33,000 nt of DNA, from the NCBI GenBank assembly GCA_030690545.1, contig JAUYGN010000107.1:1-33000 (forward strand). Direction: 5' to 3'. The stretch is from Solirubrobacteraceae bacterium (GTDB lineage Bacteria > Actinomycetota > Thermoleophilia > Solirubrobacterales > Solirubrobacteraceae). The notes beneath the pieces are model-generated. The model saw only the letters and a program-made list of their open reading frames with translations, was not told the DNA's origin and searched no databases. Shown here in pieces: positions 2,019 to 32,404 of the stretch; position 1 is the stretch's first letter, and each line of letters begins with the position of its first letter. The position numbers were made by a program, and so were the translations under genes.

Positions 2019-3079
2019 GCGTCGAGGCGCTGAGCTGGGTGTTCAGGCGCTCCCGCGCGGAGCATAGCGCCCGTCTCGTGCTGCTCTCACTCGCCAACCA
2101 CGCCGGCGGTGACGGCGGCCACACCTACCCGAGCATCGGCAAGATCGCGGCCGAAACGCGGCTCGGCGAGAGCACCGTCCGCGGCGCGCTCGAGCAACTG
2201 AAGGACCTCGGCGAGATCACGGAAGTCGGCGTCAGTCCACTGCGCACACGATGCTTCCGGCTACCGCTTGACCCCGCAGAATCTGCGGGGTCTGAGGGTG
2301 CAGATACTGCGGGGTCAGGGGGTGCAGAATCTGCACCCCCGCAGAATCTGCACCCCCGCAGAATCCAGCAGCCGACCCCGCAGATTCTGCGGTTTGACCC
2401 CGCAGAATCTGCACCCAAACCGTCCTTAACCGTCCATCAACCAAAAGAGGATGCTTCGCATCCTCGTCCGGTTCGGCCGAACCGGACGACGACCGGCGAC
2501 GTCACCAAGGTCTTCGATGAGTGGGTAACCGCCACCGGCAGGACCGGCCGTACACAGCTGACCGACAAACGTCGACGGATCATCCGTCGAGCGCTGGCGT
2601 CCCACGGCCTCGCTGACTGCCTTGACGCCGTCCACGGCTGGCGGCACTCCTCGCATCATCGAGGAGAGAACCAGCAGCAGACGGTGTACGACGACCTCGA
2701 GCTGCTGCTGAGAGATGCCCGACAGATCGAGAAGTTCCGAGACCTGCAGCGCAAGCACGGTGTCGGCGGCAACGTTGCCGGTGCCGCGGCCGCGAGCTGC
2801 CCGGGCTTCAGCAGCGAGCTGGCGGCGCGGTGGGCGCCACTCGCCGCGCGGCTCGCTGACCTCGTCGAGAAGGAAACGCACGACGTGTGGCTGCGACCGC
2901 TGCATCCGCACACCGACCTCGATGGCACGCTCGTCCTCGGCCTTCCGCCGGAGATCGCGCTCTGGGTCGGCGATCGCTTCCGAGGCGCGCTCGATCGCGC
3001 CGCAGCGGACGTCGGGGAGCAGCCCGTGAGGCTGATCGAGTGCGCCAGCAACGCGCTAGGCGAGGTCAACGCGGCATGA
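2015..3079 (+). CDS. replication-initiator-like protein: winged helix, iteron-encoded linker, DnaA-N-like C-terminus
   Basis: 354 residues. Residues about 36-72 form a winged helix-turn-helix (YPSIGKIAAETRLGESTVRG, then ALEQLKDLGEI), the type found at the N-terminus of phage and plasmid replication initiators. Residues about 86-134 are a low-complexity linker (repeats of DPAES/GAESAPP) encoded by the iteron cluster at 2270-2416. The C-terminal part from about 265 (ELAARWAPLAARL, DVWLRPL, GTLVLGLPPEIALWV) resembles DnaA domain I, which recruits helicase. Together this suggests an O-protein-like role: binding the origin inside its own gene and loading the helicase. The gene overlaps both neighbours (GTGA and ATGA). 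The helicase recruitment is inferred from fold likeness only. Confidence 0.72.
   Translation: MSVEALSWVFRRSRAEHSARLVLLSLANHAGGDGGHTYPSIGKIAAETRLGESTVRGALEQLKDLGEITEVGVSPLRTRCFRLPLDPAESAGSEGADTAGSGGAESAPPQNLHPRRIQQPTPQILRFDPAESAPKPSLTVHQPKEDASHPRPVRPNRTTTGDVTKVFDEWVTATGRTGRTQLTDKRRRIIRRALASHGLADCLDAVHGWRHSSHHRGENQQQTVYDDLELLLRDARQIEKFRDLQRKHGVGGNVAGAAAASCPGFSSELAARWAPLAARLADLVEKETHDVWLRPLHPHTDLDGTLVLGLPPEIALWVGDRFRGALDRAAADVGEQPVRLIECASNALGEVNAA
2270..2416. repeat. seven-copy iteron cluster, candidate phage replication origin
   Basis: The 11-base unit GCAGAATCTGC or a close variant occurs at 2276, 2300, 2324, 2341, 2358, 2380 and 2402. The start-to-start distances are 24, 24, 17, 17, 22 and 22. 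Most copies sit in a G- or C-run frame (GACCCC or CCCCC before, GGGGTC or CACCCC after). Copies at 2270-2292 and 2318-2340 are perfect inverted repeats with 11-base arms around a single A. The array is in frame inside the initiator gene and codes its linker, as in lambda-type O/ori arrangements. Confidence 0.75.
2417..2487. other. A/T-richer tract plus two perfect inverted repeats next to the iterons (candidate unwinding region)
   Basis: 2417-2449 is markedly richer in A and T than its surroundings (for example aaccgtccttaaccgtcc and catcaaccaaaaga). It is followed directly by GAGGATGC-TTC-GCATCCTC at 2447-2465 (8-base arms, 3-base loop). Then comes a perfect 22-bp palindrome at 2466-2487 with arms GTCCGGTTCGG and CCGAACCGGAC. 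The order iterons, A/T-rich, hairpins fits a replication origin with an unwinding element. Confidence 0.6.
2767..2780. repeat. dispersed palindrome copy 1 (CGGCAACGTTGCCG)
   Basis: Perfect 14-bp palindrome inside the replication-initiator gene, encoded as GGNVAG, about 350 bases downstream of the iterons. Confidence 0.75.
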
Positions 3080-3330
3080 CCGACCCGACCGTCAGCCACC
3101 GCGGCGTCGACGACATCCTCGTCGACGCCCACGCCAGAGTGCGGACGCTCGAGGCGCAGCTGCACGCCGCGAAGGTCGACCGCGCCCGAGCGTTCGCGAT
3201 CGCTCAGCAGCACCACGGCCGCAGCGCCGGCGACATCTCCCGCCTGCTCGGCCCGGCCGTCACCGCCGACCGCGTCGGCTACGACATCCGCGTCGGCCGC
3301 CGGCTGCTGCAGACGAGGAGCTCGTCGTGA
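3076..3330 (+). CDS. small helical hypothetical protein
   Basis: 84 residues from ATG 3076 (ATGA overlap with the initiator gene). A predicted helix (VDDILVDAHARVRTLEAQLH) is followed by HHGRSAGDISRLLGPAVTADRV, which looks like a helix-turn-helix or sigma-like recognition segment. No family is named with confidence. The stop overlaps the next GTG (GTGA 3327-3330). A small DNA-binding accessory to replication or transcription is possible but unproven. Confidence 0.65.
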   Translation: MTDPTVSHRGVDDILVDAHARVRTLEAQLHAAKVDRARAFAIAQQHHGRSAGDISRLLGPAVTADRVGYDIRVGRRLLQTRSSS

Positions 3331-3998
3331 TCCTCAAGCCCGAGCTCATCCGCCAGATCCGGAAGGGCAAGAAGACCGCGATGCGCGTGGTCGCCAAGCG
3401 AGGTCGGTGCTCGTACTACGTCGGTCATGACTACCCCGTTCGGTCTGGGCGTGACGAGAAGGCGGCGTGCACGATCACCGTTCTTGACATCGAGCGGCAG
3501 CGCCTCGGCGACATGACCGATGATGACGTTCGGGCCGAGGGCTTCCGCACGATCCTCGAGTACGCGAGGTACTGGCTGGCGGTGCACGATCGGCAGCCGG
3601 CGGACCCGGACACGTATGACTGCTGGCTGCGCCGGCACGGCGACACGCAGGTGTGGGTCGTCACGTTCGAGCGCAAACGCGCCCTCGAGCTCGCGCTTCC
3701 CGACAAGCCGGTCTTCCTGGCGCGCGACAGCAGCCGCGGGTACACGACCGACCCGAGCCGGATGCTGCACGGCGCCGGCGAGGTCATGGGTCTTGCGCCG
3801 ACGACCGGCTCCGTCGCGCGGGCGCGACGCGCGGCCGACGTAGCGCGGCGTCAGCAGATCCAGGAGGTTCACCGCCTCGTCGAGCGTGCGCGCACCGCGC
3901 TCGACGAGGCCGTCCTCACCGGACTCGAGCTCGGCCCCGACCTCGTTGCGCTCGAGCAGCACGTGCACGCGATCGAGCAACGGATCCGAGCGGCATGA
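3327..3998 (+). CDS. ASCH/PUA-like domain protein with C-terminal helices
   Basis: 223 residues from GTG 3327. The first 115 residues read like an ASCH-type beta barrel: MILKPELIRQIRKGKKTAMR, then CTITVLDIERQRLGDMTDDD and VWVVTFE. ASCH domains are thought to bind RNA or modified nucleosides. The middle has FLARDSSRGYTTDPSRMLHGAGEV. The C-terminus from about 165 is a long amphipathic helix (ARRAADVARRQQIQEVHRLV) suited to a coiled coil. Two of the actinophage ASCH hallmarks (LGDM-TDDDV-AEGF) are clear. The molecular target is unknown. It overlaps both neighbouring start/stop codons. Confidence 0.68.
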   Translation: MILKPELIRQIRKGKKTAMRVVAKRGRCSYYVGHDYPVRSGRDEKAACTITVLDIERQRLGDMTDDDVRAEGFRTILEYARYWLAVHDRQPADPDTYDCWLRRHGDTQVWVVTFERKRALELALPDKPVFLARDSSRGYTTDPSRMLHGAGEVMGLAPTTGSVARARRAADVARRQQIQEVHRLVERARTALDEAVLTGLELGPDLVALEQHVHAIEQRIRAA

Positions 3999-4691: not shown

Positions 4692-4872
4692 GGGGCATCG
4701 GTTCGAAATTTTCGTTCGTGTGCTGGCGGTGACGCCCGAACTCGCTGTGGAAAACAGCCAGTCGAATAATCGGGGCTTGCTGGAGGTGGTCTAAGACATC
4801 AGGGGGCGGGCTCACACCGCCGCCGTGGACCACTGTCTGGCTGCCGCGCCCGGAGAAACCTGGAGATCGCTG
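4692..4872. other. 181-base gap before the terminase genes: possible late promoter or packaging (cos/pac) region
   Basis: This is the largest non-coding gap in the left half and is richer in A/T than its surroundings. It holds CGAAA-T-TTTCG (4706-4716), a small hairpin GCTGT-GGAAA-ACAGC (about 4744-4758) and AATAAT at 4765-4770, which could be a -10 element although no good -35 element sits 17 bases upstream. Cos or pac sites commonly lie next to the small terminase gene. None of these elements is decisive alone. Confidence 0.35.
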
Positions 4873-8723: not shown

Positions 8724-9521
8724 ATGCTGTTCACCCGCCTGTTCCCGCTCGTCGTCTTCGAAACACCCGGCAACATTGCCGGTGGCGCCGCGCCCCCGGC
8801 CGCGCCACCCGCGACGCCTCCCGCCACACCACCGGGCGCACCCGCGGCGCCCGCGCCGAGCGCACCACCACCTTCCGGCCAGCCGGCCGGTGAGACGCCA
8901 CCACCGGCACCCGCGCCGCCGGCCGCTGACCAGGCCGTGCCGTACGCGCGCTTCCAGGAGGTCAACACGAAGGCGCAGCAGGAAGCCCAGCGCGCCGCGA
9001 CGCTCGAGCAGGAGCGCGACCAGCTCAAGGCGCAGCTGACCGCGCAGCAGCGCGCCGGCCTGCCCGAGCTCGACCAGGTCAAGGGACAGCTCACCGACGC
9101 CCAGACCACGATCAAGACGCTCGAGCAGCGCGCCAGCACCGCCGAGACCAAGGCACAGGACCTCGAGCGCGGCGCATGGGTGCGCCAGGCCGCCGCGGGT
9201 GCGAACTTCCACGACCCCGAAGACGCCGTCCTGCGGACTGACCTCGCGACGATCGACAACCAGGAAGCCGCAACCCGGCACGTCCAGACGCTCGCCGCCA
9301 GCGACCAGCTCAAGCACCTCATCCGCCCCGCCGACCAGCCGAAGAACGCCAGCGACCTGCTGCAGCAGGTCCTCAAGCCCGCGACCGGCCCAGGCTCACA
9401 GCAAGACCAGCCCGTCATCGCCGCCGACCAGTTCAACGCGATGACGCAGGACCAGCACGTCGCGCTGGCAGAGGCAGATCCCAAGCTCTACGAGCGCAGC
9501 CTGCGGGCCGCCGCTCAGTAG
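8724..9521 (+). CDS. capsid assembly scaffold protein
   Basis: 265 residues. A Pro/Ala-rich N-terminal third (about 18-70) is followed by VPYARFQEVNTKAQQEAQRA and a coiled coil (LEQERDQLKAQLTAQQ and TIKTLEQRASTAETKAQDLE, about 90-155). A helical C-terminus includes DASDLL-like NASDLLQQVLKP. The layout, with the coiled coil just before the capsid gene, is typical of phage scaffolds, whose C-terminus binds the coat protein. No protease motif is visible, so the scaffold may leave intact or be cut by another enzyme. Palindrome copy 8767-8782 is encoded as PGNIAG. Confidence 0.78.
   Translation: MLFTRLFPLVVFETPGNIAGGAAPPAAPPATPPATPPGAPAAPAPSAPPPSGQPAGETPPPAPAPPAADQAVPYARFQEVNTKAQQEAQRAATLEQERDQLKAQLTAQQRAGLPELDQVKGQLTDAQTTIKTLEQRASTAETKAQDLERGAWVRQAAAGANFHDPEDAVLRTDLATIDNQEAATRHVQTLAASDQLKHLIRPADQPKNASDLLQQVLKPATGPGSQQDQPVIAADQFNAMTQDQHVALAEADPKLYERSLRAAAQ
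8767..8782. repeat. dispersed palindrome copy 2 (CCGGCAACATTGCCGG)
   Basis: Arms CCGGCAA/TTGCCGG around CA, in the scaffold gene, encoded as PGNIAG. Confidence 0.8.
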
Positions 9522-9587: not shown

Positions 9588-9588
9588 C

Positions 9589-10485
9589 ATGGCGCTCATG
9601 AACAAGCCGACCATCTGGGCAACCCAGGTGCTCATCAATCTGCGGGCCGCGATCGTCTACGGCGCGCCGACCGTCACCAACCGCAACTACCAGGGCCAGA
9701 TCAACCAGGCCGGCGATCGCGTCAAGGTGACCGGTCTCGTCGATCCGACGATCTTCGACGTCACCCCGAACACCGACATCCCCGACCCGGAGACGCTGAC
9801 CGACACCGAAGCCGAGCTGGTCATCGACCAGAACAAGGGCTTCAACTTCCAGGTCGACGACGTCGACCAGCTGCAGCACGCCGTCGGCGGCATCCAGCTG
9901 CAGTCAGCCGCCAACGCCGCACGACGCCTCGCCGAAGTCGCCGACAACTCGATCGCGCTGAAGATGGTCAGCGAGGTCGACGCCGCCAACAAGATCGGCA
10001 CGACGGGAACGCCGCTCGACGTCGACGCCCCCGAGCCCGGCGTCGCGCTGCAGGCCGGCGCGACGAGCACCTACCGCGTGCTCGTGCGGCTCGGGATCAA
10101 GCTCGACAAGAAGAACGTCCCCTCCGCCGGCCGGTGGGTCGTCCTTCCGCCGTTCATGATGGGCGCGCTCGCCGTCGACCAGCGGTTCACCGCCGCGACG
10201 CAGCAGGGCGAGGACGTCCTGCGCAACGGCTTTCAGGGCCGCTGCGCTGGCTTCGACGTCTACACGACGTCCGCCGTCCCGGTGAGCGCCGACAAGTACA
10301 GCGTGATCGCCGGGTCGACGATCGCGACCAGCTACGCCGAGCAGCTGATCAACGTCGAGTTCTACCGGCCGCAGCTGCGCTTCGCGAACGCCGCCAAGGG
10401 CCAGCACGTCTACGGCCACAAGACGTTCTACCCCGAGGCGCTCGCCGTCGCGACGGTCCAGGACGTCTCGGACCTCGACACCTGA
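9589..10485 (+). CDS. major capsid protein (P22 gp5-like, HK97 fold)
   Basis: 298 residues with AAGGAGGG eight bases before the ATG. The sequence follows the P22-coat-like group common in actinophages: ALMNKPTIWATQVLINLRAA, NRNYQGQINQAGDRVKVTGL, ELVIDQNKGFNFQVDDVDQ, a basic helix AANAARRLAEVADNSIAL, GRWVVLPPFMMGAL, FQGRCAGFDVYTTSAVPV and a final KTFYPEALAVATVQDVSDLD. It assembles the icosahedral shell around the scaffold encoded just upstream. Length is normal for the group. A strong hairpin follows the stop codon. Confidence 0.88.
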   Translation: MALMNKPTIWATQVLINLRAAIVYGAPTVTNRNYQGQINQAGDRVKVTGLVDPTIFDVTPNTDIPDPETLTDTEAELVIDQNKGFNFQVDDVDQLQHAVGGIQLQSAANAARRLAEVADNSIALKMVSEVDAANKIGTTGTPLDVDAPEPGVALQAGATSTYRVLVRLGIKLDKKNVPSAGRWVVLPPFMMGALAVDQRFTAATQQGEDVLRNGFQGRCAGFDVYTTSAVPVSADKYSVIAGSTIATSYAEQLINVEFYRPQLRFANAAKGQHVYGHKTFYPEALAVATVQDVSDLDT

Positions 10486-10495: not shown

Positions 10496-10523
10496 GCGTG
10501 ACCGGCAACCTTGCCGGTCACGC
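10496..10523. terminator. 13-base-arm hairpin after the capsid gene (also a copy of the dispersed palindrome)
   Basis: Arms GCGTGACCGGCAA (10496-10508) and TTGCCGGTCACGC (10511-10523) are perfectly complementary with only CC between them. It is the only copy of the dispersed palindrome that lies between genes. It could act as a transcription attenuator or mRNA end-stabiliser downstream of the capsid gene. There is no T-run after it. Confidence 0.55.
10501..10518. repeat. dispersed palindrome copy 3 (ACCGGCAACCTTGCCGGT)
   Basis: The only intergenic copy; arms extend to 13 bases (10496-10523) around CC, after the capsid gene. Confidence 0.8.
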
Positions 10524-10562
10524 GCATCCCCTTCTCGTAACCCTGAGTACAGGAGTAACCGC

Positions 10563-12784: not shown

Positions 12785-12792
12785 GTGACAGC

Positions 12793-13722
12793 ATGATCCA
12801 CGCCATCGCTGGTGCGCACCAGGTCGCGAAACTGCAGGGTGCCCCTATCGGCCTCGACATCGCGCCAGGAACCGACGACGAGGGATTCCCCCTTCGCGAA
12901 GGGCAACTGACCGCGCGTATCATCGATGGCGACGAGGTGCTGGTCATCGACCTTCCGATCACGGCCGGCCTCGACGGCGCAGGAGATCCGCTGGAGCTGT
13001 ACACCGCGGCGTTCACCGCACCGGCAACCTTGCCGGTCGCGATCGAGTGGTGGCAGCAGTTCACCGTGCTCCCGGCACCCGCGGAACGCGTGCTCTACGA
13101 ACTCGTGACCGGCGACCCGGCGCCGCCCGGCGACGGCGTGCTCTGCACGCTCGCTGACGTCCGCGGGCGCCGGCAGACCAGGGGCGAGGACGTCGCCCAA
13201 GACGCGGAGGTCCTGCGCGTGATCGCCGGCGTGTCCGCCGCGATCACCACCGAGCTCGAGCGGGAATTCACGCCCACCGACGACGCCACCCGCGTCTTCG
13301 AGCTGCGCGCCGGCGAAGACCGCATCGTGCTGACGCCCTACGAGATCCGCACGGTCACGCAGATCCGGATTAATCCCGATGCAGACGACCCGAAGATCCT
13401 TGCCGCGAGTGACTACAAGCTGTCGCCCGACCCCGCTGAGCACGGCACCTATCACCGCATCCGCCTGCGTACCGCAGTGACACCCGAGGCCGGCTGGCGG
13501 CACGTCGACCTCGAAGTCACCGGCGACTGGGGGATGGAAACGATCCCCGCCGACGTGCGGGAGGCCGCGATCATCGCGGTGGTGCACAACATGCGCACCA
13601 CCGTCGGCCAGTACAGCATCGCCGACGGCGCCGGCGGAGAGACCCGCTACGAACGCACCGAGATCCCGCAGGCCGCCCGCGACCTGCTCAAGCCGTTCCG
13701 ACGCCAAGCACGCTACGTCTGA
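12793..13722 (+). CDS. head-tail connector protein (gp6-like)
   Basis: 309 residues from ATG 12793. The N-terminal 100 residues are beta-rich and unlike classical connectors (LDIAPGTDDEGFPLREGQLT, then DLPITAGLDGAG). The C-terminal 200 residues match the gp6-like connector pattern: LCTLADVRGRRQTRGEDVAQ, VLRVIAGVSAAITTELEREF, YEIRTVTQIRI, DWGMETIPADVREAAIIAVV and a closing basic segment DLLKPFRRQARYV. Connectors dock under the portal ring. The N-terminal extension may be an added domain. Palindrome copy 13021-13036 is encoded as PATLP. The stop overlaps the next ATG by one base. Confidence 0.72.
   Translation: MIHAIAGAHQVAKLQGAPIGLDIAPGTDDEGFPLREGQLTARIIDGDEVLVIDLPITAGLDGAGDPLELYTAAFTAPATLPVAIEWWQQFTVLPAPAERVLYELVTGDPAPPGDGVLCTLADVRGRRQTRGEDVAQDAEVLRVIAGVSAAITTELEREFTPTDDATRVFELRAGEDRIVLTPYEIRTVTQIRINPDADDPKILAASDYKLSPDPAEHGTYHRIRLRTAVTPEAGWRHVDLEVTGDWGMETIPADVREAAIIAVVHNMRTTVGQYSIADGAGGETRYERTEIPQAARDLLKPFRRQARYV
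13021..13036. repeat. dispersed palindrome copy 4 (CCGGCAACCTTGCCGG)
   Basis: In the connector gene, read in a different frame from the other copies, as PATLP. Confidence 0.8.
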
Positions 13723-15604: not shown

Positions 15605-15994
15605 ATGGCGGACGCCGTCCGCATCGAAGGCCTCGCCCAACTCCGGCGAGACCTCCGACGGATGCAACCCGAAACCCTGCGCGAAGTCCGCGGCGTCCTC
15701 AAAGACGCCGCGACCGTCGTCGCGCGCCGCGCCCAAGCAACCGCACCCAAACGAACCGGCAACCTTGCCGACTCCTACCGCGCCGGCACCGCCGGCAACA
15801 CCGCGTTCGTGCGCTCACGCCTGCCCTATGCCGGCGTCCACGAATACGGCGGAACGATCCGCCCACGCGGCACCCCGATCGTCATCAAACGCAGCGCACC
15901 AATCACTACGGCGCTACGCGACAACGAGGACCAGATCGTCAAGAAGGTCAGCGACGGCATGGACCGCGTCGCGCGCCGCAACGGCTGGCGCTGA
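15605..15994 (+). CDS. HK97 gp10-like tail completion protein
   Basis: 129 residues. RIEGLAQLRRDLRRMQPETL, then ARRAQATAPKRTGNLADSYR and YAGVHEYGGTIRPRGTPIVI form the clear signature of HK97 gp10-like proteins (the R-TG-L-S and Y-hEyGg blocks). These proteins help complete the neck or tail. It follows the major tail gene here rather than preceding it. Palindrome copy 15756-15770 is encoded in the conserved TGNLA. Confidence 0.82.
   Translation: MADAVRIEGLAQLRRDLRRMQPETLREVRGVLKDAATVVARRAQATAPKRTGNLADSYRAGTAGNTAFVRSRLPYAGVHEYGGTIRPRGTPIVIKRSAPITTALRDNEDQIVKKVSDGMDRVARRNGWR
15756..15770. repeat. dispersed palindrome copy 5 (CCGGCAACCTTGCCG)
   Basis: In the gp10-like gene, encoded as TGNLA; last base of the 16-mer differs. 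Confidence 0.75.
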
Positions 15995-16484: not shown

Positions 16485-19400
16485 ACTCAAGGTCGTCCTC
16501 GTCGGCGACACGAAGTCGCTGGACCGCGCGTTCGCGAAAGCGAGCGACGGCGCCGGCCGGATGGGTGCTGCCGTCGGCCGCGCCGCGAAGATCGGCGGCG
16601 CAGCGCTGCTCGGCGCCGGCGCCGCCGCGACGAAGATCGCGGTCTCGTTTGAGTCGTCGTTCGCCGGTGTCCGCAAGACCGTCGACGCCAGCGAGGCCGA
16701 GTTCTCGAAGCTGAGCAAGGGCCTGCGCGCGATGTCGCGCGAGATCCCGGTCACCGCCAACGAGATGGCCGGCATCGCCGAGGCCGCCGGCCAGCTCGGC
16801 ATCGAGACGAAGAACATCCTCGGGTTCAGCCGCACGATGGCAGACCTCGGCGTCGCGACGAACATGTCCAGCGACCAGGCCGCGACGTCGCTCGCGCGGC
16901 TGGCGAACATCACGCAGATGCCGCAGACCGAGTTCGACCGGCTCGGCAGCACGATCGTCGAGCTCGGCAACAACCTCGCGACGACCGAGGGCGAGATCGT
17001 CGAGATGGGCCTCCGGCTCGCGGGCGCCGGCAAGCAGGTCGGCATGACCGAGGACCAGATCCTCTCGTTCGGCGGCGCCTTGTCATCGGTCGGCATCGCC
17101 GCCGAAGCCGGCGGCTCAGCGTTCTCCAGGGTCTTCGTCGACATGGCCGTCGCCGTCCAGGACGGCGACGACAAGCTCGACCTGTTCGCCAAGACCGCCG
17201 GCATGACCGGCAGCGAGTTTCAACGAGCGTTCGAGAAGGACGCATCGGGCGCCACGATCGCGTTCATCGAAGGCCTCGGCAAGATCAAAGACAGCGGCGG
17301 CGACGTCTTCGGCACGCTCAAAGACCTCGGCTTCTCACAGCTCCGCGTCCGCGACTCCCTGCTGCGCGCCTCCGGCGCCGGCGACCTGTTCCGCCGCAGC
17401 ATGAAACTCGGATCGCAAGCGTGGAAAGAGAACAACGCGCTCACCAAAGAAGCCGAGCAACGCTACGACACGACCGAGTCCAAGCTGAAGATCCTCAAGA
17501 ACGTCTTCACCGACACAGGCATCGTCCTCGGCTCCAAGGTACTCCCGCCGCTCGCCGACGCCGCGCAAGCGATGGCATCGTTCGTCAGCAACGCGATCGA
17601 CGGCAAAGGCCCGATCGGCGACCTCAAGGACCAGTTCGACGGCCTCCGCGACAGCGGCAGCAGCGTCAGCGAAGCACTCCGCACGATGCTCTCCGACGGC
17701 TTCAAGGGCGTCAACTGGGACAAGATCGGCGGAACGATCAGCGACGGCTTCACCAAGGGCGTCGACTTCACCGGCAAACTCGCCCCAGCCGTCGCCTCAG
17801 GCATCGGCACGGCCCTCGGCCAGATCGACGGCAGGCAGCTGCTCTCCGGCCTCCTACGCGTCGTCAGCGAAAGCATCGAGGCACTGCTCAGCCCGTCGTT
17901 CTGGAAAGAGAACTTCGCCGCCATCTTCAGCACCGTCACGATCGTGTTCCCGGTCGCCAAGATCCTCAAGATCCCCGGCGCGAAGTGGCTGTACGACCAC
18001 ATCAGCAAACCGTTCTACAAGGCACTCGGATTCCTCGGCAAGGGGCTCCTCTCCAGCCTTGGCAAGATCGGTAGTGAGGCCGGCGTCGGGTTCCTCGCAG
18101 GGCTGGAGAAACTCGCGCCACGCACCGCTCACCTCCTCCTCGGTCTCGTGACTGGTACCGGCAAATGGCTGTCAGGGCTCCCTGGGAAGTTCAAGGACGG
18201 TGGGCGCCGCGCGGTCGACGGTCTCGTTGGCGCGATCGGCGACGGCATCGGCAAGCTCACCGGGGGGATCGGTCGGCTCATCGGTGCTGGTATCAAGAAG
18301 CTCGGCTCGCTTGTACCAGACTGGGTGCGAGTCGGAACCGCGTTCGCCGGAGCCATGATCCGCGGGGTCGTGAACGGCATCAAGGCGCTGCCCGGCAAGA
18401 TCGGCGGCGCGGTCAAGGGAGCGCTTGGTGCCGTTACTGGTTCGGGGATCGTCAACAAGCTCTTTGGCGACAAGGGCGATGGCATCGGTCGGGCCCTGGG
18501 CTCATCGATGCCATCGAGCGGTGGTGGGGGGAACTTGATGGGTGCCAATCCGGCGCTCGGCCCGATCGCTGGGCTCGCCGCGCGCCTGGGCGGCAAGGTG
18601 TCGTCCGGCCGCCGGCCCGGTGCGATCACGTCGTCGGGCAACCAGTCCTACCACTCGAGTGGTGAGGCGATCGACATCGTCGGTACGCCCGGGAACATGC
18701 TGCGGATCTTCCGCGCGCTGAAAGCGACGATGGGACCGCGGCTCGCCGAGCTGATCTACACCCCCGGGGGCACCGGGATCCGCAACGGCCGGCCGCATCG
18801 CTTCACCGGCAAGGTTGCCGCTGACCATCTCGACCACGTCCACGCCGCGCTCGATCTTGGCAAGCCTGGGCCGGGCATCGGCGACGGGTACGGCAAGGGC
18901 CAGATCATGAACCTCTGGACGCGTGCGGGCGGCTCACCGGGGATCGCGAACCTCGCCGCCGCAGTCGCGCTTGCCGAATCCGGCGGCAACAGCAAGGCCA
19001 TGAACCGCAACACCAACGGGTCGGTCGACCGGGGGCTGTGGCAGATCAACAGCATCCACGGGGCCCTGTCGACGTTCGATCCGACGGGCAACGCCAAGGC
19101 CGCGGTCAAGATCAGCTCCGGCGGCCGCAACTGGAACCCATGGGTCGCCTTCAAACGCGGCATGCACCTCAAGTTCCTCGGCGCGCCCGCCGGGAACGTC
19201 GGCGGCGGCAGTGGTACCCGCAGCACCGGCGGGAGTGGCGGCGCCGCGGCGGTATCGGCGCACACCGAGCGTGCGGGCTCGAGGATCGTCAACGCGCTGA
19301 CCAAGCGCCACAGCCCGGCCATCGACCGCGCTGTCGGTGCCGCGGCTCGTACCGGCACGCTGATCGAGGACGCCTCGACGGCCTACGGTCACATGGAGCG

Positions 19401-20202: not shown

Positions 20203-22200
20203 ATGGCTGATCGCGAAGCGCTCGTGCTGGACGGGCTCGAACTGAACGACGGGACGGTGTTCTCGCTTGACAAGGTCGATCTGACGCCGCCGGCGGAGCT
20301 CGAGGAGTGGGTCAAGGGCGCTGACTCGCATGGTGCGATCCTCGCGCGCGAACCGTTGGCCGAGAACCGCGTCATCACTGCGGAGCTGCAGGTCGAGCCG
20401 CAGGCCACGATGGACCTCGCGCTGCACTGGGTTGGCGAGCTAGCCGACAGGCTGAAGGAGTGTCAGCGCAACCGCAACGGTCTCCCGCTGACGTGGGTGC
20501 CGGCGGGGTCAACGCTGTCGCCGATCACGTTTCGCTGTCTGTCGGGGCAGATCACTGGGTTGCCGATCGATGTGACGAGCGGCTGGCTCGCGAGCGCGCC
20601 GTCGATCACGGTCAAGTTGACGTGTCTGCCGTTCGGAGAAGGCACCGAGACGCTGTTCGGCTCGATCACGTCGAGCGCACCGTTGATCGCACTCGAGCTC
20701 GCGAGTGTCGGCGGCGACGTCGACGGTCGGGCACGCCTGGTCGTCACGGACGCGGCGGCGCAGGCGCGGCGGCTTGTCGCATGGGGGCTTGAGTCGCGGT
20801 GGTTGCCGACGAGCGACCCGCCGTCGCTGATCGTGGACTCAGCGGCGATGGTGACAAGTGGCTACGCCGGGGCGACCGCGACCCGTGCGGGGGCCTACGG
20901 GGGTGCTACGAACAACGTGATCTCCGCGACGCTTCGGACGCGGCCGCAAGCGATCTGTTCGTTGGGGAGCCTCGCGCACGTCGGGGCGTTCCGGCCGCAA
21001 CTGCGGTTCTGGGCGTCAGAGACAACGATTGCCGTGCGGTTGCGCTGGCAGGCCCTCGACGGGCCGTTCCGCGCCCTGTCGTACAAGTTGCCGGCTGTCG
21101 TCGGGTGGAACCATGTCGACCTCGGCTTGATCGACGTTCCACCGACGACGATGGGGGCGCAGCGCTGGGTGGGTGTTCTAGAGGCCCACTCTACGGCGGT
21201 GGGCGGGGAGACGTTTGCCGTCGACGCGGTATGGATGATGCCGGCGCAGCGGTTTGGGAGGACCCGCGGCGTGTACGCCTATCGGCCTGGTGTATCGCAA
21301 CTGATCGACGATTTCGACGGCCGGTCACCCGGCGCGACGCTTGGTGGCACGGCGTTACAGCTTGGCGGGTCATGGGCGACGTCGGGCGCCACCCCAGATT
21401 TCGTCGCCGCGGCCGGTGCCATGCGTCGCACTGCATGGCCCGACGGTGGGTTCCCCACAGGGCCTCGCTTTGCGATCGCGGGAGCTGCGAGCTACGCAGA
21501 CACCGAGGCCAGCATCGACGTCAGGGTTGACGGCCACACCAACGGCCCGAATCAGGCCGTGGTCGTGCGCTGGGTGAACAACCAAAACTACCTCATACTC
21601 CGCAACAACGACGGCCAGATCAGTCTTTCGCTCTACATCGCCGGGTCCTTCACGAACGTCCATCACCCCGATGGGGTGATCCCGGGCCTGGTCGGGTCAT
21701 GGTTTCGCCTACGCCTGGTCGCCTACTCGTCCGGGCACGCGTTCGGGTGGGTCCTGACACCGTCTGGAGGCGTGCTGGCAGAGCTGCAAATCAGCCACTC
21801 GGCACTCCGGGCAGGAGGACCGCTCGCAAGCGGCCGACCGGGCTTCATGGACTGGAACGTCGCGGGCCCGCTGACCCGCGACTACGACAACTTCTACGCC
21901 GGACTACCGGCGCCCGAACCGATCGTCTGTCACTCCGGGCGCTCGATCGAGTTCCGCCACGACAACGCCCTGCGCGCCGACGCGACCGGCAACGTTGCCG
22001 GGCCACCACCCGAATACGTCGGCAGCCGATTCTTCGTCCCGCCGGCGGGCGGACCGGATCGCAATACCCGCGTCGCCGTGATCGCCAGACGCAACAACGT
22101 CGAGGCTGGTGCCGATAACGATCTCGTCGGCAACCTCACGATGGACAACACCACCGTCCAGGCGTACGTCACGCCGCGCTACCTCGTCGTGCCGCGCTGA
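20203..22200 (+). CDS. distal tail-like protein with an inserted concanavalin-like region
   Basis: 665 residues. The N-terminus (REALVLDGLELNDGTVFSLD, then LTPPAELEEWVKGADSHGAI) resembles distal tail (Dit-like) proteins of actinophages that follow the tape measure gene. The middle about 365-560 (DDFDGRSPGATLGGTALQLG, then NQAVVVRWVNNQNYLILRNN) has the beta-sandwich style of laminin-G or concanavalin-like sugar-binding regions. The C-terminus (SGRSIEFRHDNALRADATGN) is again Dit-like. Host-surface binding is therefore likely. The region 20760-21900 uses more G at third positions than the rest. Stop and next start overlap by one base. Confidence 0.68.
   Translation: MADREALVLDGLELNDGTVFSLDKVDLTPPAELEEWVKGADSHGAILAREPLAENRVITAELQVEPQATMDLALHWVGELADRLKECQRNRNGLPLTWVPAGSTLSPITFRCLSGQITGLPIDVTSGWLASAPSITVKLTCLPFGEGTETLFGSITSSAPLIALELASVGGDVDGRARLVVTDAAAQARRLVAWGLESRWLPTSDPPSLIVDSAAMVTSGYAGATATRAGAYGGATNNVISATLRTRPQAICSLGSLAHVGAFRPQLRFWASETTIAVRLRWQALDGPFRALSYKLPAVVGWNHVDLGLIDVPPTTMGAQRWVGVLEAHSTAVGGETFAVDAVWMMPAQRFGRTRGVYAYRPGVSQLIDDFDGRSPGATLGGTALQLGGSWATSGATPDFVAAAGAMRRTAWPDGGFPTGPRFAIAGAASYADTEASIDVRVDGHTNGPNQAVVVRWVNNQNYLILRNNDGQISLSLYIAGSFTNVHHPDGVIPGLVGSWFRLRLVAYSSGHAFGWVLTPSGGVLAELQISHSALRAGGPLASGRPGFMDWNVAGPLTRDYDNFYAGLPAPEPIVCHSGRSIEFRHDNALRADATGNVAGPPPEYVGSRFFVPPAGGPDRNTRVAVIARRNNVEAGADNDLVGNLTMDNTTVQAYVTPRYLVVPR
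21986..22001. repeat. dispersed palindrome copy 7 (CCGGCAACGTTGCCGG)
   Basis: Perfect 16-bp palindrome in the distal tail gene, encoded as TGNVAG. Confidence 0.82.
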
Positions 22201-25479: not shown

Positions 25480-25898
25480 CCACGCAACGACTCGTCGCCG
25501 CGGCCCTGACCGCGGCGACGATCGCCGCCGCGCTCGCGGGAACCAACGCCACGACCACCGCGGCGCACCACGACTGCCACACCAAGGCCTGCGCCGCCCG
25601 CGTCCAGCACCGCGCCCTCGAACGCCACTACCAGCGCACCTGGCGCGCCGCACCGCCAGCCGTACGAGCGCACCTGCGCCGCATCGCCCAATGCGAATCA
25701 CGCGGCAACCACCGCGCCACCTCACCGAGCGGACGCTACCGAGGCCTGCTGCAGTTCCTCCCCGCGACATGGCGAGCCGTCGGCGGTCGCGGCGACCCCG
25801 CCGCCGCCACCCGCTGGGAACAATGGGCACGCGGCGCACGGCTCTACCTCCGCGCCGGGCCCGACCAATGGCCCGCCTGTTCCAAGCGCACCCGATGA
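25476..25898 (+). CDS. secreted Rpf/transglycosylase-like muralytic protein
   Basis: 140 residues from GTG 25476. Signal-like N-terminus (TTQRLVAAALTAATIAAALA, about 2-21). Residues about 64-135 match the transglycosylase-like / resuscitation-promoting-factor domain: RRIAQCESRGNHRATSPSGR with catalytic Glu74, YRGLLQFLPATWRAVGG, then WEQWARGARLYLRAGPDQWP. Such enzymes cut the glycan backbone of actinobacterial peptidoglycan. It would complement the peptidase encoded upstream. It is coupled to its neighbours, so it is a phage lysis or wall-processing enzyme rather than a stray host gene. Confidence 0.82.
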   Translation: MTTQRLVAAALTAATIAAALAGTNATTTAAHHDCHTKACAARVQHRALERHYQRTWRAAPPAVRAHLRRIAQCESRGNHRATSPSGRYRGLLQFLPATWRAVGGRGDPAAATRWEQWARGARLYLRAGPDQWPACSKRTR

Positions 25899-26293
25899 GC
25901 CGCGACCGCGCCCTCGAGCACGCCTTCCTCACCGCAGCCCAACACCGCGCCAGCGGCCGTGGTGACTACCCCGCGCGCGTCCAAGCACGCCTCGAACAAG
26001 CCGAACGCACCTACGGCGCCGACAGCTTCCGCACCCGCACACCCACCGAGCTCGCCGACGAGATCCGCGAAGAAGCACTCGACATCGGCGGCTGGGCAGT
26101 CCTCCTCCTCCAAGTCCTCGACGACACCGACACCCCGCCCGCGCGACTCGCCCGAGCACGCGACCAACTCGAACGGATCGTCAGCATCGCGGTACTACTC
26201 GACGGACTCGTCGATCGCGTCAGAATCGACACGTCCGCACCGGCAACGTTGCCGGCTGAGCGGCCGGCGGGTCTTATCGGAACGAGTACCTGA
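25895..26293 (+). CDS. helical hypothetical protein (MazG-like pattern possible)
   Basis: 132 residues from ATG 25895 (ATGA overlap). All-helical: ALEHAFLTAAQHRASG, RVQARLEQAERTYGADSFRT, ELADEIREEALDIGGWAVLL, ARDQLERIVSIAVLLDGLVD. The E-x-x-EE-x-x-D-x-x-x-W spacing resembles MazG-type NTP pyrophosphatases and related phage proteins, but this is not certain. Palindrome copy 26240-26255 is encoded near the end as PATLP. Its end overlaps the convergent nuclease gene by 20 bases, so transcription from both sides meets here. Confidence 0.62.
   Translation: MSRDRALEHAFLTAAQHRASGRGDYPARVQARLEQAERTYGADSFRTRTPTELADEIREEALDIGGWAVLLLQVLDDTDTPPARLARARDQLERIVSIAVLLDGLVDRVRIDTSAPATLPAERPAGLIGTST
26240..26255. 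repeat. dispersed palindrome copy 8 (CCGGCAACGTTGCCGG)
   Basis: Perfect 16-bp palindrome near the end of the 25895 gene, encoded as PATLP; identical to copy 7 but in another frame. Confidence 0.82.
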
Positions 26294-27394: not shown

Positions 27395-27680
27395 GTACGT
27401 TCTGGGCCGAACTATGGACCGCTTGATCGGGGAACAGCTTGAGTTGACAAGCGGAGGTCTACGGGCGCTGGCCGATGACCTCCTAGCCCAGGAAGCACGC
27501 GCAAGCCGCGAAGCGTGGACGCATGTGCTCGACGGACTGCGCCGCGCGCTCATGACACCTGGTCTGTCCGAGCAGGATCGTCGGCTTCTGGGGTCGTGTC
27601 TTGGTGACTGTGCTGACTCTGCTGGGCAGCCTCTCGTATCTTCGTCGCCGTTCGCGTCCGTGGATCTTCGGGCGCTTTAG
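27393..27680 (+). CDS. possible small helical ORF opposite the lysogeny genes
   Basis: 95 codons from ATG 27393, which shares bases with the divergent minus-strand ATG 27394 (CATG at 27392-27395). The translation is helical and plausible (MDRLIGEQLELTSGGLRALA, then DDLLAQEARASREAWTHVLD). It overlaps the 3' end of the repressor gene by 131 bases on the opposite strand and has no clear ribosome site. Codon bias is weak. It could instead be just the 155-base spacer between repressor and the six-Cys gene. Confidence 0.35.
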   Translation: MYVLGRTMDRLIGEQLELTSGGLRALADDLLAQEARASREAWTHVLDGLRRALMTPGLSEQDRRLLGSCLGDCADSAGQPLVSSSPFASVDLRAL

Positions 27681-27993
27681 CGTCTAGGCCAGACTCGATC
27701 CGGGCGAGTCGATCGCCGAACTCCGCGAGCGCCTGCTCAATGCGGTCGAGCTGCCCAGGGTCGTCGCCGACTCTCGCCTCGCCACCACCATGCATTAGGT
27801 ACTCGACCGTGGTGTTGAGAGCGGCGGCAAGCTTGCCGTAGTTCTCCCATTTGATGCCGCCGCCGGCCTCCCACTCCTGGTAGGCGCGCAAGCTGACGTC
27901 GCAACGGTCGGCGATGACGGGCTGTGGGATCAGGCCGCGTAGCTCGCGGATGCGAGCAGCCACTTCCTGCTGATGCTGGATGTCGAGTGCCAT
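27550..27993 (-). CDS. XRE-family transcriptional repressor (candidate immunity repressor)
   Basis: 147 residues from ATG 27993 (CAT 27991-27993). An XRE/Cro-CI helix-turn-helix occupies about 12-67: VAARIRELRGLIPQPVIADR, CDVSLRAYQEWEAGG, IKWENYGKLAAALNTTVEYL. A coiled segment (LDRIEQALAEFGDRLARIES) follows, then a polar tail; there is no LexA-type protease domain, so it would not self-cleave. It lies divergent to the ribbon-helix-helix gene across the operator-like region at 28011-28118, the usual plan of a lysogeny switch. Palindrome copy 27825-27838 lies in its HTH-distal part. Confidence 0.78.
   Translation of the reverse strand: MALDIQHQQEVAARIRELRGLIPQPVIADRCDVSLRAYQEWEAGGGIKWENYGKLAAALNTTVEYLMHGGGEARVGDDPGQLDRIEQALAEFGDRLARIESGLDAKAPEDPRTRTATKIREAAQQSQHSHQDTTPEADDPARTDQVS
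27825..27838. repeat. dispersed palindrome copy 9 (CGGCAAGCTTGCCG)
   Basis: Perfect 14-bp palindrome in the leftward repressor gene, encoded as GKLA on the minus strand; centre GC. Confidence 0.7.
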
Positions 27994-28068
27994 GCGAAGC
28001 GCGAGCGTACGGGCGCTTCGTGGCCGCCGCGACGAACCGGCGGCGTAGCGGGACTTCGCGCTGCTGAG

Positions 28069-28118
28069 CTTCGTGTTTGACTTCGTGGTCACTACATGCA
28101 ACAGTACGCGTAGTGACC
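28069..28118. promoter_or_regulatory. operator/promoter region of the lysogeny switch
   Basis: GGTCACTAC (28087-28095) and GTAGTGACC (28110-28118) form a perfect inverted repeat with a 14-base spacer; the right arm ends at the ATG of the rightward gene. CTTCGTG is repeated at 28069-28075 and 28081-28087, and CTTCGTGG also at about 28017-28024. TACGCGTA (28105-28112) is a smaller palindrome. TTGACT at 28077-28082 could be a rightward -35 element, though the -10 (about 28101-28106) is poor. Confidence 0.6.
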
Positions 28119-29147: not shown

Positions 29148-29424
29148 CCGTGTGCGCGGGAGCGGCCAGCTGTCGCTCGTCGTGCTTCCTGACCCGAGCC
29201 TGACCGCGGATGCGTACATCGCCGGCGGGCTGAAGCTCGCCGGCGAGCTCGTCTGCCCGCAGGACCTCAACGCCGGCGACGAGATCACCGTCACCGTCGC
29301 TGACGCGGACGGCACCGTCATCGCGCAGGGCACGGCCCGCGCGACGGTACCCGCGTTCCGCGAGATCATGGACCGCGACGAGGTCGTCGGGACCGAGCGG
29401 ATCAACCGGGCGAAGATCCAGTGA
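29140..29424 (+). CDS. small beta-rich hypothetical protein
   Basis: 94 residues from ATG 29140, with GGAGG at 29129-29133. The sequence alternates strands (GQLSLVVLPDPSLTADAY, LKLAGELVCPQDLNAGDEIT, VTVADADGTVIAQGTARATV) like a small OB or SH3-type barrel; the last residues form a helix. It may bind nucleic acid. No family is named with confidence. Coupled to the next gene by GTGA at 29421. Confidence 0.6.
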   Translation: MSDRVRGSGQLSLVVLPDPSLTADAYIAGGLKLAGELVCPQDLNAGDEITVTVADADGTVIAQGTARATVPAFREIMDRDEVVGTERINRAKIQ

Positions 29425-29600
29425 GCGCGGTCGTGCTCGTGCTGCTGGTGCTGCTCGTGTGGACCGTCCTGCCGTTCGCCGCGGTCGCGGTGTGGCTGTG
29501 GGCAACGCGGCCGCGCGGCCGCGGCGCCGCCGTCGTGGTGGACTTCTCGCGGGCACGCGGGACCGGCAACGTTGCCGATCCGGGCCGGGTGCGGTCATGA
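29421..29600 (+). CDS. 59-residue single-pass membrane protein
   Basis: GTG 29421 overlaps the previous stop (GTGA); the stop overlaps the ParB start (ATGA 29597). One strongly hydrophobic helix (VVLVLLVLLVWTVLPFAAVA, about 4-23, continuing to VWLW) is followed by a basic patch (TRPRGRGA) and a tail containing the palindrome as TGNVADP. Function unknown; it may be an anchor for a nearby early protein. Confidence 0.6.
   Translation: MSAVVLVLLVLLVWTVLPFAAVAVWLWATRPRGRGAAVVVDFSRARGTGNVADPGRVRS
29563..29577. repeat. dispersed palindrome copy 10 (CCGGCAACGTTGCCG)
   Basis: In the small membrane gene, 20 bases before the ParB-like start codon; encoded as TGNVAD. Confidence 0.8.
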
Positions 29601-31900
29601 CGACCGCGACCGTCGACGCCCTGGACGCGACGTTCGTCGCGATCGAGCTGCTTGACCCCGATCACTGGCCCAACCCACGCGGTCCCGTCGACACGACCAG
29701 CGCGAAGTATCTGGAGCTGAAAGCGTCGATCGCGGCGCAGGGCCTGTTGGAGCCGATCGTCGTCGGCGCGCCGCTGCCCGAGCTCGACGGCCGCCACGCG
29801 ATCGTTGCCGGCTGGCGGCGGTACACCGTCGCGAAGGACCTCGGCCTGGCGGGCGTGCCGGTGCATCAGCGCAGCGACATCACCGACGCCAGGGGGGCGC
29901 TGCTCGCCGCGCTCGCGGAGAACATGGCCCGCGAAGACATGACCCCGGTCGCGGAGGCCTCAGCGATCGCGCGGCTCGTCGAGCTCGGCCTGACGCAGGC
30001 CCAAGCTGCCGCCGCGGTCGGCGTGAGCGAGCGCACGGCACGCAACCGGCTGCAGCTGCTCGCGCTGCCCGAGCCGGTCCGCGTCATGATCGATACCGGC
30101 GCGGTGCCGTCGACGGCGGGGACACGGCTCGCGCAGATCGGGGCCGCGTCGCCGGCCGCAGCGTCGATGATCGCCGAGCGCCTCGCCAACGGCGGATCGG
30201 TCGTCGGCGACCTCTTCGACGACGACCTGACCAACGACCTGCTGTACGACCTAGGGCACGAGGCGTCGGAGTGCCTGCTCGTCTCGCTGCGGGAGGACGT
30301 GAGCGCCCATCAGGCAGGGCAGTGGTTCGAGGGCTGCGGCGGCCGGGCGTTCGCGCGGCGTATCAAGGGCCTCGTCGGCGAGTACCGCGGCGTCGCGCTG
30401 AGCCTCGACGACGAACGCAACAGCTACCTCGTCGACCGCGCCCGCGAGCGCGGCCGGCTGCTCGAGCTCGGCACCTACACCTACATCACCGACCTCGACA
30501 TCGTGCGTGAAGCGCTCGACCTCGCCATCGAACGTGGCATCGAGGCCAAGAGGCAGGCCGAGGAGGACGCCGCCAAGGCGCGCAATAAGGAGACGAACGA
30601 CCCCCGGGCCGTCGACGATCCGATCGCCAGCGCGGAGGCCGATCGCGACGCGCACGCCGCAGCGGTCGACGAGCGTGCCCGACCGCACGCGATCGCGATG
30701 AACGCCGAGCTCGCCCGCCGACTCCACGGCCTGAAGACCTGCAAGATCACCGGGCCCCTCGAGCAACTGCTGCTACATCTCCTCGTCCGCCGCGGCGGAT
30801 CGTGCGCGGATCTCGCGCAGCTCGCGCAAGACGGGTACGCGTACCTCGACCCCGACGCGCTCGTGCTGTCGAAGGACTGGTGCGAGAGCGGCCTGCCGAC
30901 CGTGATGGCGCACATCGTCCGGGCCTACGTCGCGTTGGCGTTCGCCGACCCGCGCGCCATCGGCAACGGGCCAGAACGCAGCAGCCATTGGCAACTGCGG
31001 GGGCTTCCCGGCGGGCTGTTACGCGACGTCGCCGACAGCCTCGACCTGCTGCCCACACGCGCGCAGGACCTCGACGCCGCACGCGACCGGCTGAGCGAGC
31101 AAACACGGCTGCATCGCGCCGAACCGGCCCGCCGCCGCGTCCTGCTCGAGCTCAGCGAAGCACCCCGCGCCGGTCTCAGCCACACCGACCTGCGCACACG
31201 GACCTCGACGTACCGCCAGCTCAAGGACACCGATCCGCCCGGCGTCCAGGCCTACACGCTCCGCGGTGGCGGCGGCCTTGGCGACAGTGAGTCGCTCGAG
31301 GAGATCCTCGGCGCGCTGCTCGAGGCCAAGCACCTCACCGCGACCGCCGCTGGCTACAAGATCACCGCGGCCGGCCGCAAGCAACTCACAGCGCTGCCCA
31401 GCGTGGCGCCCGTCATTGACGAGATCGACACCGGCCCCGTCGACAAGCACCAGGTCACGATCGACACCGTCATCAAGCGCCCCGAGCGATCCGTCCCGCC
31501 GGCCAAGCGCCGCGGCCGCGTGCTCGAGCTGATCGCCGAGCACCCCGGCATCACGATTCCCGACCTCGCCGACGCGATCGCGGTCAAGCAGGGCTACCTC
31601 TACCGCCTCCTCCCGGCGCTCCTCGACGACGGACTCGTCCGCAAGGACGGCCGCGGCTGGCACCCGGTCACCGACGACGAGGCCGGTAACGCCGCGGGCG
31701 GCGCGGCGGCGCCGGCCGGCGTGGTGCTCGTGCACGTCACGCCGACCAGCGGCGGCGACCCCGTCGAGGCCGAGCTGCAGCCCGACCCCGCGAAGGGCGC
31801 CAGCAACTCCCGCAAGGTCATCTACACCGCCAGCCGCACCGCCGCCTGGGTCGCCGAGCACCGGATCACCGATCTCCCAGCCGAAGCACCGCCCTCATGA
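29597..31900 (+). CDS. large ParB/Spo0J-like DNA-binding protein
   Basis: 767 residues. The ParB N-terminal (CTP-binding) domain is clear at about 12-120: LKASIAAQGLLEPIVV, GRHAIVAGWRRYTVAKDLGL with GWRR at 72-75, and ALAENMAREDMTPVAE at 106-120. The central helix-turn-helix is LTQAQAAAAVGVSERTARNR (132-151). The middle (about 180-500) has no clear domain but many charged helices. The C-terminus has further winged-helix units, about 510-620 and about 636-690 (GITIPDLADAIAVKQGYLYR). Typical ParB is about 300 residues, so this one is much longer. ParB proteins slide from parS palindromes; here it may serve partition, transcription control or replication. The 11 palindromes in the window are candidate sites. 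Confidence 0.85.
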   Translation: MTTATVDALDATFVAIELLDPDHWPNPRGPVDTTSAKYLELKASIAAQGLLEPIVVGAPLPELDGRHAIVAGWRRYTVAKDLGLAGVPVHQRSDITDARGALLAALAENMAREDMTPVAEASAIARLVELGLTQAQAAAAVGVSERTARNRLQLLALPEPVRVMIDTGAVPSTAGTRLAQIGAASPAAASMIAERLANGGSVVGDLFDDDLTNDLLYDLGHEASECLLVSLREDVSAHQAGQWFEGCGGRAFARRIKGLVGEYRGVALSLDDERNSYLVDRARERGRLLELGTYTYITDLDIVREALDLAIERGIEAKRQAEEDAAKARNKETNDPRAVDDPIASAEADRDAHAAAVDERARPHAIAMNAELARRLHGLKTCKITGPLEQLLLHLLVRRGGSCADLAQLAQDGYAYLDPDALVLSKDWCESGLPTVMAHIVRAYVALAFADPRAIGNGPERSSHWQLRGLPGGLLRDVADSLDLLPTRAQDLDAARDRLSEQTRLHRAEPARRRVLLELSEAPRAGLSHTDLRTRTSTYRQLKDTDPPGVQAYTLRGGGGLGDSESLEEILGALLEAKHLTATAAGYKITAAGRKQLTALPSVAPVIDEIDTGPVDKHQVTIDTVIKRPERSVPPAKRRGRVLELIAEHPGITIPDLADAIAVKQGYLYRLLPALLDDGLVRKDGRGWHPVTDDEAGNAAGGAAAPAGVVLVHVTPTSGGDPVEAELQPDPAKGASNSRKVIYTASRTAAWVAEHRITDLPAEAPPS

Positions 31901-32085
31901 CCGCACAGCCTTACGCCCGGGTCGCGGTCACCGCGCAGGGTGGCCGGTTCGTCGCGCACAAGGCGACCGGCGACACGACCGCCTGCGGAATCCAGCTGTC
32001 CGGGACACGCGTGCCCGCGCCCGACGACCTGCCCTGCCACCTCTGCAAGAACTGCGCGAAGCAGGGACGCGGTCGTGCTCGCTGA
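31897..32085 (+). CDS. small zinc-ribbon-like protein
   Basis: 62 residues from ATG 31897 (ATGA overlap with ParB-like gene). A short strand region (VAVTAQGGRFVAHKATGDTT) is followed by CG and then CHLCKNCAK (about 47-55), giving a likely four-Cys zinc site with Cys30. Similar tiny proteins occur in actinophage early operons. Function unknown. Confidence 0.62.
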   Translation: MTAQPYARVAVTAQGGRFVAHKATGDTTACGIQLSGTRVPAPDDLPCHLCKNCAKQGRGRAR

Positions 32086-32404
32086 CACCGCGATCTACGA
32101 AGTCTTCGTGCAGTGGGCCGCCTACGGCGAGCTCTGCGAGCGCCTCGGCGACCAGGACGCACGCACCAGCGACCCGCGCGACCTGATCGGCAAGGTTGCC
32201 GCCTACGGCCACGGCCGCGCGGCCGCCGCGATCTTCGCCGCCGGTGTGACCGCCGACTACGCGGACGCCCAGCACGTCCTCAAAGAGCTGCTCGACCTCG
32301 CCGCGCACGGCCGCCGCCCGCGGTACGGCAACGAGGTCGACCCCGACTTCTACGCCCAACTGACCGGGGCTCACCCGCCTCACGAACCTGGAGGAACCAC
32401 ATGA
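32075..32404 (+). CDS. helical hypothetical protein
   Basis: 109 residues from GTG 32075, overlapping the previous gene by 11 bases. Helical: TAIYEVFVQWAAYGELCERL, DLIGKVAAYGHGRAAAAIFA, ADAQHVLKELLDLAAHG; the end is polar. The palindrome copy 32188-32201 is encoded as IGKVAA. No family is recognised. The stop overlaps the next ATG (32401). Confidence 0.58.
   Translation: MLADTAIYEVFVQWAAYGELCERLGDQDARTSDPRDLIGKVAAYGHGRAAAAIFAAGVTADYADAQHVLKELLDLAAHGRRPRYGNEVDPDFYAQLTGAHPPHEPGGTT
32188..32201. repeat. dispersed palindrome copy 11 (CGGCAAGGTTGCCG)
   Basis: In the 32075 gene, encoded as GKVAA; centre GG. Confidence 0.7.

Follow-up and report, generated by a model that had tools for sequence, protein, structure and literature searches.

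What reads a set of eleven dispersed palindromes in a phage genome, and what could be gained by reading them? The question is raised by a stretch of 33,000 nucleotides from a Solirubrobacteraceae bacterium (GenBank assembly GCA_030690545.1, contig JAUYGN010000107.1, positions 1 to 33,000, here called the window), which carries phage genes and encodes an orphan ParB-like protein of 767 amino acids (29597..31900, plus strand). A preliminary description had noticed the palindromes and proposed that this protein uses them. The comparative evidence gathered here strongly supports that proposal: very probably, the eleven palindromes are loading sites of the phage's own ParB-like protein, comparable with the parS sites of chromosomal ParB and the OB operators of plasmid KorB, a prediction drawn from sequence comparison.

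A palindrome family confined to the phage

Pattern search finds 11 exact copies of CGGCAANNTTGCCG in the window against 0.01 in dinucleotide shuffles, in keeping with the earlier hand estimate of well under 0.1 chance copies. All share the core form CGGCAA-NN-TTGCCG and lie where they had been described, save that one starts at 10503 and not at 10502. Within the window, no copy with one mismatch exists and copies with two are at background level. In a survey of gapped palindromes (arms of 5-7 bases, gaps of 0-12), this family is by far the strongest of the window (log10E -28), control stretches from the host and from portal relatives going no further than about -2. Of 51 control contigs 10 kb or longer, two contain a palindrome family of at least four copies, neither with a two-base centre.

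The full consensus across the sites is ACCGGCAA-NN-TTGCCGGT, and the 18-mer form of the predicted site is ACCGGCAACGTTGCCGGT. The flanking C and G reported to extend most copies are indeed present, but more weakly than claimed (left C in 8/11, right G in 6/11), followed by A in 8/11 and T in 6/11. The central dinucleotide varies: CG in four sites, CC or GG in five, CA and GC in one each.

All 11 sites, and not ten as first thought, are held by reading frames, an open reading frame (ORF) at 29421-29600 accounting for the difference. The observation that at least two frames are used (TGNVAG-type and PATLP) stands: eight forward-strand sites are read as x-G-[NK]-x-A-x, two as PATLP, and the one in a cI-like repressor gene as GKLAA on the minus strand. 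When the coding sequences of the window are shuffled among synonymous codons with the proteins kept, a mean of 0.3 copies and a maximum of 2 are obtained instead of 11. The palindromes are thus a DNA-level signal, as had been argued, and not the by-product of a protein motif.

This signal is confined to the phage. The window is an entire contig (C14) of a high-G+C assembly of 3.53 Mb in 149 contigs, and the remaining assembly holds one exact copy of the 14-mer (C86:10795), about chance level, which leaves the host chromosome almost free of the motif. No exact overlap of 10-200 bp is found between the ends of the contig; both are open and the phage may be partly missing.

Gaps between sites range from 1.6 to 6.0 kb with a mean of 2.9 kb, a spacing evener than random (coefficient of variation 0.46, P=0.006; smallest gap 1584 bp, P=0.0005). 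The related phages described below tend towards even spacing too: 0/20,000 random placements are as even, an indicative figure summed over seven partly related genomes.

The ParB-like protein and the sites of its relatives

Relatives were reached by two routes. A motif scan with CCGGCAACSTTGCCGG against the 2.9 million viral contigs of IMG/VR returned 111 stretches. Among 50 scanned records, 46 carry one copy of the 14-mer, whereas G511 carries four, G520 and G521 three each, and G509 two, 30 bp apart. G511 (IMGVR_UViG_3300018432_000036, 29 kb; copies at 4109, 11576, 20390 and, a short way before parB, 25561) encodes a full-length homologue of the window ParB, with 47% identity over 780 columns, and its TerL and portal proteins are only 21-29% identical to those of the window. 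In G508, found via its single copy, the ParB is more distantly related, with its domains in the same order, and the contig contains eight copies of CGGCA[AG]NN[CT]TGCCG against about 0.03 in shuffles. The second route, a protein-led scan with three ParB sequences, picked relatives independently of the motif and added three full-length proteins, in G555, G556 and G557. Here the palindrome is CCGGCAG-NN-CTGCCGG or a close variant, present nine times in 42 kb, eight times in 35.6 kb and twice in a fragment of 8.1 kb, respectively, with none in the reversed-pattern control in each case. The five nearest relatives with a ParB-like gene therefore all carry the site or a symmetric variant of it. The preliminary description had named this comparison and that with the host chromosome as able to refute its proposal; both turn out in its favour.

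The half-site is CCGGCAA in the window and G511, and CCGGCAG/R in G508, G555, G556 and G557; it is shifted symmetrically together with the ParB subfamily. All-against-all comparison of ORFs finds a single gene in all six site-bearing phages, that of the ParB-like protein. A tape-measure sequence is common to the five large phages, G557 being merely a fragment, but no repressor is common to the six. Moreover, the parB ATG of the window, G511, G508, G555 and G557 is preceded by a site at a distance of 14-41 bases (the comparison leaves out G556, whose contig starts at parB). Since the site adjoins the parB start in five phages, autoregulation of parB is suggested.

The six proteins (of the window, G511, G508, G555, G556 and G557) are treated as one family. 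The window protein consists of a ParB_N domain with the CTPase fold, a helix-turn-helix (HTH) domain HTH_ParB, a long middle, a C-terminal winged HTH and a conserved tail. ParB_N (PF02195) scores 34.3 bits for a Pfam cut-off of 26.3, likewise exceeded in the relatives, and HTH_ParB (PF17762) 38.5 bits for a cut-off of 22.6; for L345 and L346, the latter is not listed at E 0.001. The family profile matches CTP-bound structures of ParB, Noc and KorB (6sdk, E 1.7e-28; KorB 8qa8, E 1.6e-12). The AlphaFold2 model of the window protein has an overall pLDDT of 59 and is confident only for residues ~10-200 and the winged HTH; its top Foldseek matches are again CTP- or CDP-bound ParB, Noc and KorB. The nucleotide-binding motifs GxRR and ENxxRx[DE]M are retained in 6/6 members. 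Within the recognition-helix region SERTARNRLQLLAL (residues 144-157; 30026..30067, plus strand), residue 152 is L in the CCGGCAA phages and E or Q in the CCGGCAG phages. It is attractive as a half-site determinant, but with six related sequences its effect is inseparable from phylogeny; residue 147 (T, S or G) shows no correspondence with the half-site.

A second group of phages displays the same arrangement. The Variovorax phage VarioGold encodes a ParB-like protein of 771 amino acids and an integrase, with no ParA found, and GTGCAGA-NN-TCTGCAC occurs at six dispersed positions of its genome; the paper describing it makes no mention of palindromes (PMC9658991). In the Acidovorax phage Aval, copies of GTGCACA type are found at four to five positions. 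ParB searches starting from these phages yield 80 viral and 5 bacterial contigs, and 87 records contain 211 near-exact sites against 8 in shuffles. The 16-bp palindrome RTGCANACGTNTGCAY is present in 44/46 whole viral records of Burkholderiales ParB phages, with 1-6 copies each. Four host genomes of 4-7 Mb hold nine copies, eight of which are on contigs with the prophage parB locus; in Acidovorax CF316, five copies stand on one contig. The X7-N2-X7' geometry is thus found in the window, its relatives and the VarioGold and Aval groups, whose sites mostly have a central CG. The two groups resemble each other by a long ParB-like gene without ParA and by dispersed 16-bp palindromes. The VarioGold/Aval proteins differ in belonging to another ParB subfamily, in the half-site RTGCANA and in having no C-terminal winged HTH by Pfam. 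A Burkholderiales site internal to parB overlaps the conserved SADLCTD codons and may thus be partly forced by coding, so it is not used as independent evidence. Two Burkholderiales prophages, L268 and L284, also carry TACCGA-N2-TCGGTA palindromes, clustered at 5479-6311 in L284; these probably serve as operators of a repressor and are distinct from the motif linked to ParB.

Several observations weigh against the ParB-like protein as reader of the sites. The centre of the window sites is variable, whereas most parS have CG. In the GERR box, W, H or N takes the place of E at the second position, which could mean a different nucleotide specificity, and the site might also be read by the C-terminal winged HTH. 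Because of partial kinship among the phages of a subfamily, not every change counts as an independent event. In G558, whose ParB is a weak relative, there are no sites, and no X7-N2-X7' family above shuffles is found in the Gordonia phages Bowser, Dogfish, Kiko and Opie or in Maja (an Arthrobacter phage), Bbif-1, ctl617, Taranis and MinM1, which carry shorter or more distant ParB-like proteins. Owing to this absence from several ParB-bearing phages, our claim is limited to the two ParB groups. Conversely, the G520 prophage has three copies of the 14-mer without a recognisable ParB. These copies (L338:4053, L338:8433 and L339:11456) have the form [CG]CGGCAACGTTGCCG[CG], two of them preceded by ggtggt, and would be due to chance or be the operator of another protein. 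Versailles, considered as a further case of dispersed sites, was rejected, its repeats being found only in a local cluster at 1.5-1.9 kb.

Used alone, the window ParB finds no relative in IMG/VR, and 146 genomes of the family and 399 of the class contain only ParB of chromosomal type. Close relatives of the window TerL and major capsid protein are not found in IMG/VR either. The portal search, which covered phage records and genomes of the host family and order, gave relatives in three family genomes (L144-L146, partial contigs), where there is no palindrome family and no match to the window-type ParB.

Mode of action and alternative explanations

KorB and ParB are loaded onto DNA at a palindrome of 16 bp, where they close into a CTP clamp that can slide; KorB reaches promoters up to 1.5 kb away (PMC11790492). 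Similarly, a dimer of the window protein would bind each palindrome of 16-18 bp via its ParB HTH, close as a nucleotide-dependent clamp (with CTP in characterised relatives), then slide off the site and spread along the kilobase-long intervals. At a density of one site per ~3 kb, loading at all eleven would leave only a minor part of the phage genome without clamps. The parB gene is placed on the strand opposite to, and beyond, the cI-like repressor gene, like early lytic genes. Such a reach and such a placement favour a ParA-less clamp that would operate on the whole genome, either in transcription control with autoregulation or in organising replicating DNA. The even spacing across late structural genes also argues that ParB would act on the whole phage genome and not at a single centromere or promoter.

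By analogy, the protein is probably a sliding clamp of the KorB or VirB kind, serving transcription control together with its own expression and/or the organisation of early-lytic DNA, and not part of a ParA-driven centromere. More tentatively, with somewhat less than an even chance in our estimation, it could be a ParA-independent nucleoid organiser: the orphan ParB, with its genome-tiling parS array, would coat the replicating phage genome and mark, insulate or condense it relative to host DNA before packaging, the same strategy being employed with their own half-sites by at least two subfamilies.

These systems share features with known ones without being equivalent to any of them. The OB operators of KorB are 16-bp palindromes both near and far from promoters (PMC11790492). 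As with KorB of the IncP plasmid RK2, we find a ParB-family CTPase fold with an HTH and 16-bp palindromes, the family profile matches 8qa8/8qa9, and KorB-like autoregulation is hinted at by the window site next to the parB start. Unlike KorB, the proteins belong to phages and not to a plasmid, have 597-767 amino acids with an added C-terminal winged HTH, and no KorA-like partner has been identified; the sites, dispersed as they are, lie mostly within genes, late structural ones included, with one upstream of parB. Published parS sites are 16-bp palindromes with a two-base centre, mostly CG, the chromosomal form being TGTTTCACGTGAAACA (PMC5450999). The window shares with the chromosomal systems of Spo0J and Noc this kind of palindrome, the ParB_N and HTH_ParB domains and the GxRR and ENxxR motifs, whereas the half-site is another one, no ParA and no canonical ParA-binding motif are found, and the phage sites tile the whole genome while chromosomal parS cluster near the origin. 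The ParB-related virulence regulator VirB of Shigella is reported to work without ParA as a CTP-dependent switch countering H-NS silencing (PMC10770331). Its sites are upstream of target promoters; in this, the virS counterpart differs from the mostly intragenic sites of the window.

The best surviving alternative, although unlikely, is that the prophage is extrachromosomal and partitioned like a plasmid, the sites making up a dispersed centromere and ParA being encoded on missing sequence or provided by the host. The ParB fold and parS geometry would fit, as would a replication-initiator-like gene in the window and the failure to detect an integrase among the window genes scanned. Yet the AAA_31 model (PF13614) detects no ParA in 47 related phage records, while it does detect one in the ParAB-bearing record Yong-DA and in 14/14 control genomes; nor do the window genes scanned with PHROGs match a ParA family, the contig ends being open. 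Classical ParA-driven partition is disfavoured because ParA is not found. In addition, the consensus ParA-binding motif (L/F/I)G(K/R)G(L/F/I) does not occur within residues 1-60 of any of the six family members, and VarioGold, Aval and their relatives integrate, as seen from integrases and/or location in host contigs. In the phage-plasmid N15, a SopB-like ParB-family protein has several centromere sites across the phage genome; N15 for its part has a ParA (SopA), lives as a plasmid and has few sites. Yong-DA, with both ParA and ParB, also speaks for a dispersed centromere by its five dispersed 16-bp palindromes, GTTCAGANNTCTGAAC. This record ("Aphanizomenon phage Yong-DA", L153, ON073792) contains mostly polysaccharide-synthesis genes, Rep and ParAB but no virion genes, and looks like a plasmid.

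That the sites are stoperators of the cI-like immunity repressor (27550..28101, minus strand), silencing the prophage as in mycobacteriophage L5, is very unlikely. Dispersed repressor sites are known in phages and one of the window sites overlaps the repressor gene. However, a homologue of this repressor is found in 0/5 of the other site-bearing phages, all of which have ParB; the sites are in reading frames, away from promoters; and L5 stoperators are asymmetric and oriented. This alternative, raised in the preliminary description, thus finds little support. That the reader is some other protein of the phage, such as the replication initiator acting at dispersed origins or packaging signals, seems most improbable. 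A site does lie within the initiator gene in the window, G508 and G555, but all-against-all comparison does not show G511, G555 or G556 to share the initiator gene, origins would have no need of 8-11 evenly spaced copies, and the tail/tape-measure sequence common to the large fragments is not DNA-binding. Finally, a host-encoded cause, whether a nucleoid-protein site, a methylation or restriction site (also considered at the outset) or a codon-usage artefact, can practically be dismissed: eight forward-strand sites do share one frame with host-like codons, but a nucleoid-protein or methylation site should abound on the host chromosome, where one further copy exists in 3.5 Mb, while codon shuffling does not recreate the family and the half-site is shifted in relatives.

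Orphan proteins with the ParB-CTPase fold outside parAB are common on prophages and mobile elements, usually without a ParA-binding motif; ParA-less members occur widely among phages and prophages, with largely unknown function, according to a 2025 survey (PMC12704722). The passages of it considered here give no DNA sites for phage orphans, and its text does not contain the string 'palindrom', whereas two ParA-less ParB groups are now given predicted cognate DNA sites from sequence alone. The natural series of matched changes in ParB and half-site makes their function directly testable.

Positions of the sites and neighbouring genes

Along the window, the first site (2767..2780, CGGCAACGTTGCCG) is within the replication-initiator-like gene (2015-3079, PHROG/Pfam) and the second (8768..8781) within the scaffold gene (8724-9521). 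The third (10503..10516) forms the centre of a longer palindrome of 24 bp, GTGACCGGCAA-CC-TTGCCGGTCAC, located where the ORF 10498-10881 begins. Sites four to six fall in the head-tail adaptor gene 12724-13722 (13022..13035, PATLP frame), in a neck/tail-completion gene ending at 15994 (15757..15770) and in the tape-measure gene 16474-20193 (18807..18820). The seventh (21987..22000) is in the ORF 20203-22200, between the tape-measure and lysis genes, and the eighth (26241..26254) in the 3' end of the ORF 25691-26293, again in PATLP frame. Site nine (27825..27838), which has no flanking extension, falls within the part of the cI-like repressor gene that encodes the HTH (codons for GKLAA). The tenth (29564..29577), 19 bases before the parB ATG, in a position kept in relatives, is included in a 59-amino-acid ORF (29421..29600, plus strand) that overlaps the parB start, and the last (32188..32201) lies downstream of parB in the ORF 31940-32404.

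In the ParB-like protein, the last ~57 residues (VVLVHVTPT...DLPAE, ~708-764, window 31718-31888) are ~90% identical to those of G511, for 47% over the whole protein; this unusually conserved tail is perhaps a partner-binding element. The winged HTH (HTH_24; 31511..31651, plus strand, residues ~639-685 of 767) has 58% identity with part of a short ORF of the host (G000:C37:40019-40189), and other genomes of the host genus contain similar segments.

The replication-initiator-like gene carries one site in the window, in G508 (L340:2649-3557) and in G555 (L349:6915-7919). It comes immediately after parB in G555, in agreement with the idea that the window contig is a permuted cut through a single early region. 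A tRNA-Gly called by ARAGORN at 10035-10133, inside the major capsid gene, is probably a false positive. An ASCH-domain protein is encoded at 3327-3998, with the replication initiator gene on one side and the HNH/terminase genes on the other.

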